A DNA stretch of 64,000 bases from Bacteroidota bacterium (GTDB taxonomy: Bacteria; Bacteroidota; Bacteroidia; Bacteroidales; Prolixibacteraceae): positions 1-64,000 of the forward strand of contig JAHEYT010000035.1 of the NCBI GenBank assembly GCA_023251455.1, given 5' to 3'. Made by a program: the position numbers and the translations under genes. The stretch's first letter is position 1. Each line of letters begins with the position of its first letter. Below are positions 6,792 to 12,311 of this stretch, piece after piece. The notes under the pieces were generated by a model that saw only the letters and a list, made by a program, of their open reading frames with translations, did not search any database and was not told the origin of the DNA.

Positions 6792-8051
6792 ATGCTATCC
6801 CTATTTAAAAATATTGACAACAAAAACCATAAACCAACATTCGGAGCATTAAAAATCCTCAAATATATAGGTCCCGGATTATTGGTTACTGTTGGTTTTA
6901 TTGATCCCGGCAATTGGGCATCAAACATTGCCGCTGGAGCCAATTTTGGATTTACGCTCTTGTGGATGGTTACAATGTCAACCATAATGCTAATCATTCT
7001 TCAGCATAATGTGGCGCATTTAGGTATTGCTACCGGATTGTGTTTGTCCGAAGCAGCCACTCTGCATACTCTACCGTTAGTTTCCAGAACAATTCTTGGT
7101 TCTGCAATGGTAGCCTCCGTTTCTACCTCATTGGCTGAGATTTTGGGTGGTGCGATTGCTCTTCAAATGCTTTTTGGAATACCAATTCCAACCGGGGCAA
7201 TAATCGTGGTTTTATTTGTTGGAGTCATGCTGTTTACCAATTCCTATGCACTCATCGAGAAGATAATCATTGCATTTGTTTCAATCATTGGCCTATCGTT
7301 TTTGTATGAATTGAGTTTGGTCAATATTGATTGGGTTCAGGCCGGAATTGCGTGGGTTGTTCCTTCGATTCCTGAAGGATCAATTCTGATTATTATGAGT
7401 GTTTTGGGTGCTGTAGTGATGCCTCACAATCTATTTCTTCATTCCGAAATTATTCAGAGCCGTCAATGGAATCTTGAAAATGATGAGGTCATTAAGAAAC
7501 AGCTTGATTATGAATTTGTTGATACACTGGTTTCTATGCTTATTGGATGGGCGATAAATAGTGCCATGATTATTTTAGCAGCTACAACTTTTTTCACTCA
7601 TGGGGCGAAGGTTGGCGAACTTCAACAAGCACAGTCGATGCTGGGGCCATTACTCGGAAATAACGCGGGAGTCGTTTTTGCCATTGCCTTACTATTCGCC
7701 GGAATAGCCAGTTCTATTACTTCAGGTATGGCAGGTGGAAGTATTTTTGCTGGTTTGTATAGCGAACCTTACGATATTAAAGATAATCATAGCCGATTGG
7801 GAATTGCCTTGTCTTTGCTTGTTGCATTAATCTTGATTTTTGTGATCAAAAATCCATTTAATGCGCTCATTATCTCACAAATGATATTGAGTATTCAACT
7901 TCCTTTTACAATCTTTTTACAGATTTATCTGACCTCATCTTCAAAGGTGATGGGAAAGTATGTCAATTCAAAATCAACCACCATTTTAATGCTCTTGATT
8001 GGTAGCATTGTTACCTTCCTGAATGTTTTGCTTTTCATTAGTTTTTTCTGA
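6792..8051 (+). CDS. Nramp family divalent metal (Mn/Fe) transporter
   Basis: A 419-residue inner-membrane protein with about 11 hydrophobic segments. The Nramp metal-binding signatures are present: DPGN in GFIDPGNWASN (first membrane segment) and MPHN in VVMPHNLFLHSEI (sixth). These place the Asp, Asn and Met ligands of proton-coupled Mn2+/Fe2+ importers (MntH/DMT1 family). A conserved-looking SSITSGMAGG segment lies further on. The gene stands alone on its strand. No manganese or iron operator could be recognised upstream. The next feature is a long non-coding tract, not another coding gene. Confidence 0.95.
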   Translation: MLSLFKNIDNKNHKPTFGALKILKYIGPGLLVTVGFIDPGNWASNIAAGANFGFTLLWMVTMSTIMLIILQHNVAHLGIATGLCLSEAATLHTLPLVSRTILGSAMVASVSTSLAEILGGAIALQMLFGIPIPTGAIIVVLFVGVMLFTNSYALIEKIIIAFVSIIGLSFLYELSLVNIDWVQAGIAWVVPSIPEGSILIIMSVLGAVVMPHNLFLHSEIIQSRQWNLENDEVIKKQLDYEFVDTLVSMLIGWAINSAMIILAATTFFTHGAKVGELQQAQSMLGPLLGNNAGVVFAIALLFAGIASSITSGMAGGSIFAGLYSEPYDIKDNHSRLGIALSLLVALILIFVIKNPFNALIISQMILSIQLPFTIFLQIYLTSSSKVMGKYVNSKSTTILMLLIGSIVTFLNVLLFISFF

Positions 8052-8166: not shown

Positions 8167-8299
8167 TTAATAACTCTGATAATGGTATGTTTATGAACTA
8201 TAAAGTCCAACACTGGCGCCTGAAATGTTTCCAATAGGGTTATCAACAAATGTTCATAACAATCAATGATATTCAGTTGGTTATAACCGTTAAAAAAGC

Positions 8300-8331
8300 T
8301 TGACAGATATACTTTTAATGAAGTATCTTTA
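8300..8331 (+). promoter_or_regulatory. Promoter immediately before the ncRNA candidate
   Basis: TTGACA at 8300-8305, an 18-base spacer, then TATCTTTA at 8324-8331, a near match to TAnnTTTG. The predicted start is around 8338, just before the first potential helix of the structured tract. Confidence 0.5.
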
Positions 8332-8337
8332 TTACAT

Positions 8338-8876
8338 CAGACGAGCGATAAAAGACTGCTCAGAACGAATGGAGAAGGTAATAGATTTTTAACCGAATTT
8401 AAAACCTTATCACCCGGATCTTCGGATCTGCTTTCGGAAAGAGCTGAAGTTGAACCAGAAAGCTTGCTTTCAAAGTTCATCAACAAACGATTTTCCGTCA
8501 AAAGTTCATTGTAAAGTTGATTCAGGAAGGTGTAAGATTTGAAAGGACTTCGGTTCTGGATAATTGGCCGAAGTGGAAGACTGTCCTCGGACTATCGGAA
8601 ACTTTTCATCGAGAGGCTAATCGAAAGATCGGTTCTCAGATGGCTAACCTGAAGCTTCGTCCGTGAAGATCAATTCGAAAGAAAAGGTCGAACGGACAAC
8701 CGGACGATCTTGCTGTAACAGGCGAAATCAGATGGTTCAAGGCTGGACGAAAAAGCTGAAAAGCCGAATCAAACAGCCAGTCGTAATAACCGTAATCTGG
8801 CACTAAGGAGAACCCTCGGGCGATCTAAAAGTGAATGGGAACCATCCTTAACGGATTGTTCCCATTCGTGTTTTTT
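8338..8876 (+). ncRNA. Large structured non-coding RNA candidate (about 540 nt)
   Basis: No frame longer than about 60 codons exists on either strand. The tract is bounded by a promoter (8300-8331) and a strong terminator (8833-8876). Many short helices can be drawn: GATC-TTCG-GATC at 8417-8428, GTTGAAC (8449-8455) with 8475-8484, GAAAG-CTTG-CTTTC at 8458-8471, ACTTCGG (8547-8553) with CCGAAGT (8568-8574), and a hairpin at 8611-8637 closed by a GAAA tetraloop. GTCCGT (8659-8664) pairs with ACGGAC (8692-8697), and TTCGA/TCGAA nests inside it. AAGATC (8666-8671) can pair with GATCTT (8706-8711) to make a pseudoknot. It lacks the hallmarks I know for tmRNA, RNase P RNA, group II introns and 6S RNA. 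The RNA nature is inferred and the function is unknown. Confidence 0.55.
8833..8876 (+). terminator. Strong intrinsic terminator of the ncRNA candidate
   Basis: GAATGGGAAC (8833-8842) pairs with GTTCCCATTC (8858-8867), and ATCC (8844-8847) with GGAT (8853-8856). This gives about 14 base pairs with one mismatch around the loop TTAAC. Six T residues follow at 8871-8876. It lies just before the 3' end of the convergent histidine-kinase gene. Confidence 0.85.
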
Positions 8877-8890
8877 ACCATTTGATAACT

Positions 8891-11800
8891 TTAATTCATT
8901 TCAAAATCTTCGGGCAGCGCGAAATAAAAGGTCGATCCTATATTTGGCTCAGATTCAAGCCAAATTCGTCCGCCAAGTAATTCGGCCAGATTTTTGGTGA
9001 TTGCAAGACCCAATCCATTACCACCATATTTCCTGGTTTGCGATGCTTCAACTTGTCTGAAACGGTCGAAAATTTTGTCGTGGTAATCCTTCGGAATTCC
9101 TATTCCAGTGTCTTTCACATAGAATTGAATGTTGTTCGAAATAACATCTACTCCAATTTCAATGTATCCTGAATCGGTAAACTTTAGTGCATTACCTACG
9201 AAATTGATCAAGACCTGTTTAATTCTTGACTCATCACTCATAATGATTAATTCCCGGGTGTCCATCCGAGGTTTTATAATTAATTGGATTCCTTTTGTAT
9301 TTGCTCTGAATGAATATTCTTTTTGTATTTCAGAGATAAGGTCATAAGCTGAGAACACATTTTTTATCAATGTAATCTGTCCTGCTTCTATTTTTGAAAT
9401 ATCAAGAATGTCGTTGATAATTGTCAGCAGATTGTTGCCGCTTGAGTTAATCAGATTGGCAAAATCTCTTCTTGATTCAGTATTCAGGTCAGGAGCCGTG
9501 AGCAGATCGGAAAAGCCAAGAATGCTGTTTAATGGAGTGCGTATCTCGTGTGACATATTTGCAAGAAAGGCTGATTTTAAGCGGTCGCTTTCTTCTGCTT
9601 TTTCTTTTGCAGCGATCAGATCTTTCTCCATTTTTTTACGTTCACTAATATTTTCACTCAGAACAACAAAGTTGGTTATTTTGCTTTCCTGATTTTTGAT
9701 TGGAGAAATTTGAACTGATTCCCAATATATTTCATTGTTTCTTGTTCGGTTTTGGTGTTCTCCCTTCCATGTATTTCCTGCAAGTAGGTTATTCCAGATT
9801 TCATTATAAACATCATCGGAAGTGTGTCCTGGTTTTAAAATACGAAGCACCTTTCCAATTAATCGTTGATTTGGATATTCTGAAACCTCTAGAAATTTTT
9901 TATTTACATATTCTATAACTCCCTGAGTATCGGTGATTACAACAGAGGCTGGATTTTGCTCGATAGCAACCGAAAGTTTGAGAATTTCCAGATCTGTTTT
10001 CTTCCGGTTTGTAATATCTTCTTTAATTGCCATATAATTGACAATCGTTCCTTCTTCGTCACGGATTGGCGATATGACTGCGGTTTCCCAATACAGTTCA
10101 CCATTCTTTTTTCTGTTTTGAATCTCTGTATGGTATTCGTTGCCCGAAGTAATTGTATCCCAAAGTCTTTCATATTCACTTTCAGAAGTATATCCGGATT
10201 GTAAAATTTTAGGGTTTTTCTTCTTTGCTTCATCGAATGTGTAACCGGTAATTTCAGTAAATTTTGAATTTACATATTCAATGTTTCCTGAGGTATCGGT
10301 AATAATTATACTCGCCGGACTTTGTTCAATCCCTTTCGATAGCTGAATAATTTTCTGTTCGCTTTGTTTTTGAATGGTAATGTCGTGCCCAACACCAACT
10401 AACCCGATTATTTCTCCTGAATCGTTGGTTAATGGCATTTTGCTGGTTAAATAATATCTTTTTGTGCCTTTCCGATCAGTAAAAAATTCGAGCTTATTTA
10501 AAATAGGTTGTGCTGTTTTTATAACATGCATGTCGTCGTTGAATGTTTGAGAAGCATCGCCGGGATAGGATGATTCTATGTCTGTTTTTCCAAAAATGCT
10601 GCTTTCGCTGGTCGATCCCAACACCTCCAGATCAGCTTTATTTGAGATTAACTTTCGGCCAAGAGTATCTTTTACATAAATCGGATCCGGTATGTTATCG
10701 ATTAATGTTCGTAAAAGAATACGTTCATCAGCAATTGCCTTTTGAGATTTTCGTCGTTCGGTTATATCGGATAAAACACAATGAGTTTGTTTAAATTGAC
10801 CTTCATTTGTATGTCCAATGCGACCTTCAAGTTGAATCAAGATTGTTGATCCATCTTTTCTAACCATTTCTAATTCAGACTGAACTTTTCCGGTTGATTT
10901 AAAAGCCACGAATCGTTTTTGCACTGGTTCAATATATTCAGGAGCTAGAAAATTACTAAAACGGCATCCAATTACCTCGTTTTTTCGATAGCCCATCATT
11001 TCGAGCCATGTTTCATTAACATCGATCAAATTCCCGGTTTCATCAAGCGACTGGTATCCAACTGGTGCCTTTTCATATAACATTTTAAATCGCTCTTCAC
11101 TTTCCTTGAGAGCTTCTTCGGCCATCTTACGTTCGGTAATATCCCGCATAATTCCTTCATGAAAAAGAACTTCTCCATCGGCATCCAAAGAATACCATCC
11201 ATGATCTTCGACCCAAATACCCGATCCGTCTTTCTTTTTTAACCTGAAGATTCCCATTTCCTCGAACTTCTCCTGCAAAACAAGACTTTCACGATCTTCT
11301 GGCTGAAAATACAATTGCGATTTTATGTCGATCGCTAATAATTCTTCTTTCGAATCATACCCAAGCATTTTGACCATCGCCTCGTTTACTTCAACAAATT
11401 GCCCCTGGTGTGTGCTCTTATAAACTCCATCAGGTAAACGCTCAACCAAATTTTTGTATACTTTTTCACTTTCCAGTAAATCAGCTTCAGCCTTCTCCAG
11501 TGCACTTAAGTCAGCTACTTTAATCGTTTTTTCTCCCTGGATTGATTCCAAGTTAGTCGTTTCAGGTAAATGAGTGCGATTTGGTTTTAACAAGTTTCTT
11601 AATTGGAGGTTAAAACTTAATTCGTTTACCGGATATTGGAAAAAAGCATCAGCTGCTGACTCAATAATCGCATTGGTCAAATACTGCTGAGCCGATTGAG
11701 TACCATAAAGAATAACTGGTATTTGATGGCAAAATTGATTGATTTTTAGAGTTCTGCAGATCTCAGCGCCATTCTGATAAGGTAATTCTATATTTATAAG

Positions 11801-11953
11801 GATGATATCGGGTCTCTCTGAAACAACTAACGGAAGCAAATCGTTTCCGGAAGTTGCATGTCGAATTTCAGAGTCCAATTCCAGTTTCAGGATCAACGAT
11901 TTTAATACCGAAACACTTTTCTCAGAATCATCCGCAATGATGAATTTACTCAT
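8891..11953 (-). CDS. Multi-PAS sensor histidine kinase with an N-terminal pseudo-receiver domain
   Basis: A 1020-residue protein. Residues 1-125 form a receiver-like domain (FIIADDSE, IILINIELP) with Asn54 where the phosphorylated Asp should be and Tyr107 in place of the conserved Lys before the cis-Pro. Five PAS domains follow, with starts recognisable as YKNLVERLPDGVY, FKMLYEKAPVGYQ, LRTLIDNIPDPIY, GIEQSPASIIITD and AIEQNPASVVITD, each separated by a short amphipathic PAC-type linker. HisKA has His802 in SHEIRTP. HATPase_c has the N box NALKF, DTGIGIP and GGNGLGLAI. No membrane segment is evident, so the protein is probably cytosolic. The start at 11953 (MSKFIIADDS) is chosen over 11983 because the receiver fold begins directly. 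No partner regulator gene is adjacent. It converges on the ncRNA candidate. Confidence 0.93.
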   Translation of the reverse strand: MSKFIIADDSEKSVSVLKSLILKLELDSEIRHATSGNDLLPLVVSERPDIILINIELPYQNGAEICRTLKINQFCHQIPVILYGTQSAQQYLTNAIIESAADAFFQYPVNELSFNLQLRNLLKPNRTHLPETTNLESIQGEKTIKVADLSALEKAEADLLESEKVYKNLVERLPDGVYKSTHQGQFVEVNEAMVKMLGYDSKEELLAIDIKSQLYFQPEDRESLVLQEKFEEMGIFRLKKKDGSGIWVEDHGWYSLDADGEVLFHEGIMRDITERKMAEEALKESEERFKMLYEKAPVGYQSLDETGNLIDVNETWLEMMGYRKNEVIGCRFSNFLAPEYIEPVQKRFVAFKSTGKVQSELEMVRKDGSTILIQLEGRIGHTNEGQFKQTHCVLSDITERRKSQKAIADERILLRTLIDNIPDPIYVKDTLGRKLISNKADLEVLGSTSESSIFGKTDIESSYPGDASQTFNDDMHVIKTAQPILNKLEFFTDRKGTKRYYLTSKMPLTNDSGEIIGLVGVGHDITIQKQSEQKIIQLSKGIEQSPASIIITDTSGNIEYVNSKFTEITGYTFDEAKKKNPKILQSGYTSESEYERLWDTITSGNEYHTEIQNRKKNGELYWETAVISPIRDEEGTIVNYMAIKEDITNRKKTDLEILKLSVAIEQNPASVVITDTQGVIEYVNKKFLEVSEYPNQRLIGKVLRILKPGHTSDDVYNEIWNNLLAGNTWKGEHQNRTRNNEIYWESVQISPIKNQESKITNFVVLSENISERKKMEKDLIAAKEKAEESDRLKSAFLANMSHEIRTPLNSILGFSDLLTAPDLNTESRRDFANLINSSGNNLLTIINDILDISKIEAGQITLIKNVFSAYDLISEIQKEYSFRANTKGIQLIIKPRMDTRELIIMSDESRIKQVLINFVGNALKFTDSGYIEIGVDVISNNIQFYVKDTGIGIPKDYHDKIFDRFRQVEASQTRKYGGNGLGLAITKNLAELLGGRIWLESEPNIGSTFYFALPEDFEMN

Positions 11954-12311
11954 ATTTAATTGGTTATCGAATATGAATGTCAATTGATTGGAATATATTT
12001 TTCGCTGATTATTTTGAGGTTAACCGGGGAATAATCTATTCAAAGCTTTATTAAACTATAATGAACTTAAAATCGACAAGATAAATAAATAAAACAATTA
12101 AAATTGAAATAGAATAGGTGATTTATAGAGATTTGATAAATTTTGATCAGAGGTTAAAAAACATAACTCCGTGTTGGATTTTCGGCTTTTAAGTCGGATG
12201 CCGATTCCTGAACATTGATTTTTTGTGGACTAATCAGTTTTAGAGTGGGTTTAGATTTAGTTTCAGATAAGCTAAAATATTCTTACTTTGTAAATTCTTA
12301 TTGCTTTATTG
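11954..12311. other. Divergent intergenic region before the ECF sigma gene
   Basis: About 358 AT-rich bases between the histidine kinase and the sigma-factor gene. Near the sigma gene, TTACTTTG at 12283-12290 resembles the -7 box and would start a transcript about 15-20 bases before the ATG. I see no strong -33 box, repeat or coding frame in the rest. Confidence 0.4.

Follow-up and report, generated by a model that had tools for sequence, protein, structure and literature searches.

What does the stretch at 8300–8876 encode, between the genes of an Nramp-type transporter (6792–8051, plus strand) and a PAS/histidine-kinase hybrid protein (8891–11983, minus strand)? The window, that is, the whole stretch of DNA analysed here, comprises 64,000 nucleotides of a contig of a Prolixibacteraceae genome (JAHEYT010000035.1), and an initial annotation made from its letters had proposed at this place an undescribed structured RNA with a promoter and a terminator of its own. 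Bacteria have few known classes of large structured RNA, and the functions of several of these are unsolved.

An apparently noncoding gene with conserved ends

We place the RNA gene at 8336–8873 on the plus strand, about 540 nt between predicted ends; its 5′ end, 3′ end and terminator are conserved in homologues, and its helices covary. The longest open reading frames within 8300–8876 encode 54 and 55 amino acids, both on the minus strand, and no start-to-stop frame exceeds 55. Just 9 and 17 of 47 homologues, respectively, keep these two frames open, and the stretch differs in length from that of the window by something other than a multiple of three in 31 of the 47. The early statement that there is no usable reading frame is thus borne out, and the frames of the window copy are not kept in homologues. 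Read from stop to stop with no start codon required, the longest frame has a median of 90 and a maximum of 173 codons across 150 members; frames of such length count against a purely noncoding reading. Folding of the lone sequence beats 99 of 100 dinucleotide shuffles (z −2.1; 1 in 100 as good), a score that is weak evidence when taken alone.

The RNA matches no family in Rfam

At gathering cut-offs, Rfam 15 recognised only a tRNA-Leu in the whole window. Searching 8200–9000 at E ≤ 10 gave only flpD at 14.8 bits (cut-off 40) and group II D1D4-3 at 12.2 bits (cut-off 32). Twenty divergent loci searched at E ≤ 1 yielded two sub-threshold matches, both outside the RNA stretches; a short form of the RNA had one match (15.1 bits, cut-off 43), and the form from f35, a family of another order described below, had none. 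The expectation that no known family would be hit therefore holds for the window and for divergent members, at gathering cut-offs and at permissive E-values. A description of such an RNA was likewise not found in the open-access literature searched. These searches support the view that the RNA is a family undescribed in Rfam 15 as searched and in the open-access literature.

Could the RNA be a divergent form of a housekeeping RNA, such as RNase P RNA, tmRNA, 6S RNA or SRP RNA? RNase P RNA and tmRNA share with it, in outline, an end-closing helix, a conserved core and a variable periphery. However, the RNA matches neither model, and both RNAs have strong matches of their own elsewhere in the source genome: its only RF00010 match lies at C43 (219 bits) and its only RF00023 match above cut-off at C40 (151 bits). 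ARAGORN finds no tmRNA in the window, and Rfam down to E 10 offers no family of this kind. 6S RNA is one long hairpin with a central bubble; the consensus found here is multibranched, and cmscan returned no 6S match. RF00013 does not detect 6S anywhere in the source genome, which would favour a divergent 6S RNA, but this silence says little because the model also misses a Bacteroides control. A divergent housekeeping RNA is already disfavoured, and we hold it to be highly improbable.

Among other RNAs of comparable standing, the raiA motif RNA is shorter than the window RNA and comes from other phyla. Both are widespread, conserved, standalone noncoding RNAs of a broad bacterial group (for raiA, PMC11706538); unlike the raiA motif, the window RNA has no Rfam match. 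Bacteroidales-1, Bacteroides-1, 6S-flavo and Flavo-1 are described as candidate Bacteroidota noncoding RNAs and have Rfam accessions (Weinberg 2010, PMC2864571), yet none of them is among the cmscan matches of the window RNA. The smtA motif or 'Soda Lake RNA', reported in a 50-genome survey from Thioalkalivibrio only, resembles it as a large, covarying RNA with an unsolved role in one bacterial group, and differs in that this group is Thioalkalivibrio and not Bacteroidota (PMC11109978). None of the terms Bacteroid-, Prolixibacter, Draconibacterium, Flavobacter and Cytophaga appears in the main text of that survey.

The fold covaries within and beyond the genus

RNAalifold applied to 47 homologues gave a multibranched shape on the plus strand, closed by a helix, P1, whose 5′ strand (CAGAC, 8338–8342) pairs with its 3′ strand (8795–8799) in 233 of 235 cells over the 47 sequences. 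Next to P1 is a conserved internal loop. Its 5′ side (GAGCGATAAAA, 8343–8353) reads GAGnGATAAA-like with few departures in the 60 members displayed, and on its 3′ side (AATAACCGTA and flank, 8783–8794) TAAC and TA are invariant in 75 non-redundant members. The 5′ domain (8354–8444), most of whose pairs changed on both sides, contains helices 8354–8357/8779–8782, 8358–8361/8441–8444, 8366–8371/8431–8436, 8376–8378/8405–8407 and 8384–8388/8395–8399 and a UUCG hairpin (8415–8420/8425–8430). It is followed by a middle domain (8446–8658) closed by 8446–8451/8653–8658, by a 3′ domain (8659–8737) with helices 8659–8663/8693–8697, 8668–8670/8687–8689, 8698–8701/8734–8737 and 8706–8714/8721–8729, and by a stem-loop (8741–8778, stem 8741–8745/8774–8778). 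Outside P1, a 3′ hairpin closed by CRC/GYG (8800–8832) shows at least one double change in each of its three pairs and 95% paired cells in the 75 members; on the 47 homologues, RNAalifold alternatively pairs GCAC with GTGT after the terminator instead. Loops of UUCG, GAAA and GCAA type abound in the interior, as they do in rigid structural RNAs, and CTTCGG occurs 75 times over 75 members against 6.9 expected.

Pairs were counted on these 47 homologues after aligning them separately with MAFFT. Over 139 pairs, 92.5% of 6402 cells are paired versus 28.7–43.7% with partners slid, 92 of the 139 show double changes versus 52.7 on average in shuffles, and the observed value is not reached in any of 500 shuffles on any of five measures; these figures are flattered by a structure derived from the sequences scored, and the shuffles ignore relatedness. 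A cleaner test, even with sequences that are not all independent, is out of sample: when the structure derived from 40 sequences of the own genus is scored on 50 from other genera, 75.7% of cells pair (31.4–42.5% slid) and 94 of 145 pairs show double changes (34–56 slid). Covariation is thus present in the homologues, and the own-genus structure holds in other genera. Some helices of the middle domain hold poorly there, among them 8479–8484/8516–8521 at 34% and 8581–8585/8590–8594 at 31%, so that this domain differs between genera.

Several pairings first read off the single sequence recur in the 47 homologues: the UUCG hairpin at 8415–8430 keeps 96% of its cells, GTCCG (8659–8663) pairs with CGGAC (8693–8697) in 232 of 235, and two pairs of the GAAA hairpin (8621–8628) are kept in 45 of 45. 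Others are present as letters and fare less well. AAGATC/GATCTT, put forward as a pseudoknot, pairs in 65% of cells, a value equal to the median for 321 6-bp windows of the RNA that are complementary by chance; CGTCCG/CGGACG, put forward as a competing, switch-like pairing, is chance-like at 71%; and ACTTCGG/CCGAAGT pairs in 59%. We reject these three, whose conservation is no better than, or near, that of chance complementary windows. The proposed CUUG hairpin pairs in 36% of cells in the register tested. With no Rfam match, covarying helices and frames that are not kept, the central proposal, a structured RNA not described before and with a predicted promoter and terminator of its own, withstands those of its refuting conditions that were examined.

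Fixed ends enclose an interior of variable size

Both the 3′ motif (≤ 4 substitutions) and the 5′ motif (≤ 2) are carried by 150 of 171 matches. These members range from 302 to 645 nt (302–336 nt, n = 19; 337–430, n = 12; 431–507, n = 20; 508–576, n = 95; 613–645, n = 4), and the interior varies from lineage to lineage. The lineages have in common P1, the loop in which GAGnGATAAA lies opposite AATAACnGTA, the CRC/GYG hairpin and the terminator. P1 is mostly CAGAC/GUCUG, CAGGU/RCCUG or CAAGU/RCUUG and covaries across the 75 non-redundant members: its third (GC 52, AT 23) and fourth (GC 59, AT 14, GT 2) pairs never break, and the fifth is unpaired in 11 of 75. We propose to define the family by a 5′ motif CAnnY-GAGnGATAAA and a 3′ motif AATAACnGTA-RYYTG, joined by a covarying P1 and followed by the CRC/GYG hairpin and the terminator; P1 and the hairpin were traced across the 75 non-redundant members. 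RNAalifold on three other length classes (6, 8 and 14 sequences) returned the P1-closed shape again, with compensatory changes.

The interior can shrink and grow. In two genomes (G006 and G014; loci L065 and L066), a first-type copy is without about 170 nt of the middle domain (~8473–8646); by eye a small hairpin is left there, and the rest is kept. At about positions 992–1620 of the three f35 loci, L324–L326, the RNA consists of tandem repeated domains, with at least three modules in L325 and L326. A repeat finder detected four copies of a 38-nt unit in L324, spaced 102–112 nt apart, and a search with the unit core (GAGACGGGCAACCGCAGAA) found three copies in each of the three loci and none in 150 main members.

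The Rfam library searched presumably includes the OLE, ROOL and GOLLD models, and neither the window RNA nor its divergent members matched them. The RNA is like these three in being several hundred nucleotides long, highly structured, noncoding, independent of neighbouring mRNAs and of a function not evident from sequence; unlike them, it lacks an Rfam match at permissive E-values, occurs in a different lineage, and has conserved ends and a promoter module of its own. OLE, ROOL and GOLLD form RNA-only multimers (PMC12286853), and the window RNA, which resembles them in size, tetraloop-rich multi-domain fold and predicted independent transcription, might likewise be an ornate large RNA that builds a cage, dimer or other homo-oligomer, its conserved loop making the intermolecular contacts. 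The module repeated every 102–112 nt in L324 would suit such an assembly, but the short forms of 302–336 nt may be too small for it, and raiA RNA is a monomer (PMC12286853), so that size alone is no sign of oligomers. We rate an RNA-only oligomer as unlikely, and as the main rival to the role proposed below.

The RNA ends in an intrinsic terminator (8833–8873, plus strand), a stem at 8833–8867 followed by a T tract, with a GGG/CCC core conserved in sequence. The 14-pair stem of the initial annotation recurs: as we set it, it is paired in 91% of cells in the 47 homologues, with two of the 14 pairs kept in only about half. A simple terminator scan did not list this plus-strand terminator, probably because its stem is interrupted. 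Across 75 members the terminator region (window 8831–8871) keeps GGG/CCC as sequence and its outer pairs covary, which is unusual for a plain terminator.

A promoter and a near-unique palindrome precede the RNA

The consensus of Bacteroidota promoters at the −7 position is TAnnTTTG. In Bacteroides, promoters with −7 and −33 elements are described (PMC7366714). The pair named in the initial annotation, TTGACA (8300–8305, plus strand) and TATCTTTA (8324–8331, plus strand), is of this type, and homologues keep TTG or TTT and TAnnTTTG at the same places. We aligned 93 non-redundant upstream regions on their TAnnTTTG match (≤ 2 substitutions), a procedure that favours the motif; in this alignment the T, A and TTT of the −7 element reach 96–100% and its G 87%. 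At −24 relative to the −7 element stands TTG or TTT, with T in 72%, T in 87%, and G in 49% or T in 46% of the regions. A simple promoter count (3 found versus 1.9 expected) is no evidence by itself.

Further upstream lies an operator-like, 20-bp palindromic element (8240–8259, unstranded), with consensus TTATnAACAATTGTTnATAA in the 93 regions and one mismatch in the window copy. Two further half boxes of GTKnATA type follow within 8260–8290, at −59 and −48 from the start of the −7 element; these are consensus positions, and the boxes are by eye degenerate at the window copy. Palindrome and boxes recur in 48 upstream sequences that lie outside the near set. A search of 14 genomes that tolerated one mismatch located the palindrome at 20 places in 13 of them. 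Judged by coordinates, 17 of these places are just upstream of an RNA copy; a further one is a duplicate that adjoins a transposase gene, next to an RNA copy, and two are elsewhere. Three of the 20 RNA copies in these genomes are without a palindrome within one mismatch (that of G154 and one of two each in G136 and G140). A mirrored control pattern had no match in the 14 genomes, and by eye no such palindrome precedes the RNase P, tmRNA and tRNA-Leu genes of the source genome. The palindrome is nearly unique to this RNA gene in the genomes searched, and its putative binder is therefore probably dedicated to this RNA. In locus L043 (G011; positions 195–1954), two near-identical palindrome regions flank a transposase-like gene that immediately precedes copy 2.

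The boxes TTATnAACA and TGTTnATAA resemble DnaA boxes, and TGTGGATAA, upstream of the RNA in L324 at about 872–900, equals the DnaA-box consensus; DnaA is therefore a conceivable regulator. A search for an origin or a cluster of DnaA-type boxes around dnaA, with 1.5-kb flanks in six genomes and about 20 kb in four, found none, nor did GC skew and sampling in G011 reveal an origin or a box cluster.

Two copies in the genus and members in a second order

The RNA had been called an orphan; it belongs to a family. A DNA search of 61 genomes gave matches at E ≤ 0.1 in 36, with E below 1e-20 in 20 of 23 own-genus genomes, 19 of which 23 hold two diverged copies. In the source genome the second copy, 69% identical, lies on another contig. 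In a tree of 47 sequences, 21 own-genus first-type and 19 second-type copies, types grouped by us beforehand, form separate clades (supports 0.82 and 0.98); the duplication thus seems older than the genus, with both copies kept. Two or three neighbouring copies, spaced roughly 0.7 to 2.3 kb apart, occur in several genera (L108, L109, L110, L116, L117, L124, L125 and L154).

Such an RNA might be a regulator that base-pairs with targets, or a sponge that titrates a small RNA or a protein. A standalone gene that would act in trans, the two diverged copies in most own-genus genomes and the neighbouring copies in some are compatible with this, and a dedicated upstream element fits a regulator that is itself regulated. 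However, the most conserved letters form an internal loop between two helices and offer no open seed, and the enriched words are tetraloops and helix ends instead of one repeated binding site. A regulatory RNA of this sort is doubtful, and ranks second among the rivals.

R1, a covariance model covering the 3′ domain, has matches in 114 of 140 Prolixibacteraceae genomes at E ≤ 1e-3; among the 103 with a completeness of 90% or more and a contamination of 5% or less, 89 match. No R1 match was found in the four genomes listed from genus g12 of the same family (G033, G107, G108 and G109, two of them single-contig), a probable loss that makes a natural comparison. With no match in these four, and none in 26 of the 140 family genomes in all, the RNA is not indispensable everywhere. 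At E ≤ 0.01, R1 matches 50 of 295 genomes of the order; across 392 genomes of the phylum it matches the source genome alone (1/392), and we therefore turned to a broader model, R2, with 105 positions built from the 75 non-redundant members. At E ≤ 0.01, R2 matches 110 of 393 genomes of the order Bacteroidales, and 87 still match at E ≤ 1e-5; the majority of order genomes sampled show no match to R1 or R2.

Among 395 genomes of the phylum, R2 matches 19. Besides the source genome, three match at E ≤ 1e-6, all from f35, in another order of the same class; the other 15, with best E-values of 1e-4 to 1e-2, are left uncounted, many of their matches spanning the terminator end alone. The three f35 members carry the 5′ motif, the 3′ part and the terminator, and upstream a promoter-like pair whose first base departs from TAnnTTTG; a palindrome is not evident. 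One of these 15, locus L328 from another f35 genus (G480), has a weak R2 match (E 9e-4), and by eye its order of GAACAGTACCTTGG, hairpin, GTG and terminator is family-like; the exact 3′ motif is absent from it, and it is possibly a further member.

A pattern scan found at least 116 stretches and at least 80 loci among the matches listed, with Draconibacterium, Maribellus, Tangfeifania and Perlabentimonas as named hosts besides many Prolixibacteraceae and Bacteroidales MAGs. R1 matches 79 of the 80 pattern-scan loci listed, one match being cut by the locus end. A pattern match in Arsenophonus (L201), which neither covariance model supports, is regarded as fortuitous. The exact core pattern has no match in the viral_contigs set, and distant blastn with the window copy has none in plasmids and phages, a search that more diverged members would escape; an origin from a phage, plasmid or virus is disfavoured by these empty searches.

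Discussion

The gene described here is conserved, covarying and transcription-unit-like, with no kept reading frame, a fixed core, a variable interior and a dedicated upstream site. What surrounds it bears on how it might act. Across 172 loci, a set in which many overlap or come from related genomes, the genes on either side stay the same only within a lineage: Nramp and the hybrid kinase; an unassigned 223-aa protein and a PfkB kinase; alpha-L-fucosidase and a DAHP-type synthase; enolase and UbiD; or DnaG primase. PfkB-type kinase and DAHP-type synthase genes, of sugar metabolism, lie downstream of some copies on the same strand in particular lineages only. A leader or riboswitch would have a conserved same-strand gene downstream; the gene downstream of the window copy is on the opposite strand, and the gene at this place varies by lineage. 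Cis regulation is therefore rejected. This is the pattern of a free-standing gene, one that would act in trans.

The invariant unpaired residues beside the closing helix are compatible with an active site or a template boundary, as expected of a ribozyme or of an RNA that serves an enzyme as template. However, features of self-cleavage or of a template were not seen, and genes for a reverse transcriptase or nuclease do not recur in the neighbour clusters examined, of which only 10 members were assigned to families. We consider this reading quite improbable.

The likeliest role, to which we assign a probability of roughly 0.5, is that of an independently transcribed, trans-acting noncoding RNA that serves as the RNA part, or scaffold, of a ribonucleoprotein. 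We place it first because the most conserved letters form a loop between two helices, and a core with a variable periphery is typical of ribonucleoprotein RNAs. The transcript, presumably stable, would adopt a compact fold closed by P1 between its two ends. The internal loop next to P1, present in every lineage examined, would be the binding site of a conserved protein or a functional centre, and the lineage-variable interior, which can be lost or expanded, may act as a peripheral scaffold, so that a fixed core would be joined to a variable periphery as in RNase P, SRP or OLE RNAs. Expression would be set by the housekeeping-type promoter together with a putative factor recognising the palindrome and the boxes that follow it. 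Against a ribonucleoprotein, the internal loop can instead be a tertiary contact or a catalytic site, no gene travels with the RNA across the lineages examined, and some genomes of the family have no match to the RNA.

Taken more broadly, we find it rather probable that the RNA represents an ancient, hitherto unknown class of large structural RNA of the Bacteroidales and at least one further order, in which a fixed two-ended core carries interchangeable, lineage-specific domains, from a minimal form of 302 nt to four tandem modules. It would work in a dedicated ribonucleoprotein or RNA assembly, and its production would be under a regulator with a near-unique palindromic site. The RNA occurs widely in a large order, among others in named isolates from the four genera given above, though most of the order genomes sampled show no match, and its natural size series marks the core parts. 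Cultured hosts include Draconibacterium sediminis, Draconibacterium mangrovi, Maribellus sediminis and Tangfeifania diversioriginum. The near-unique, widely conserved operator-like site is a direct handle on the putative regulator, and as several hosts are cultured, experimental work on the RNA is feasible.
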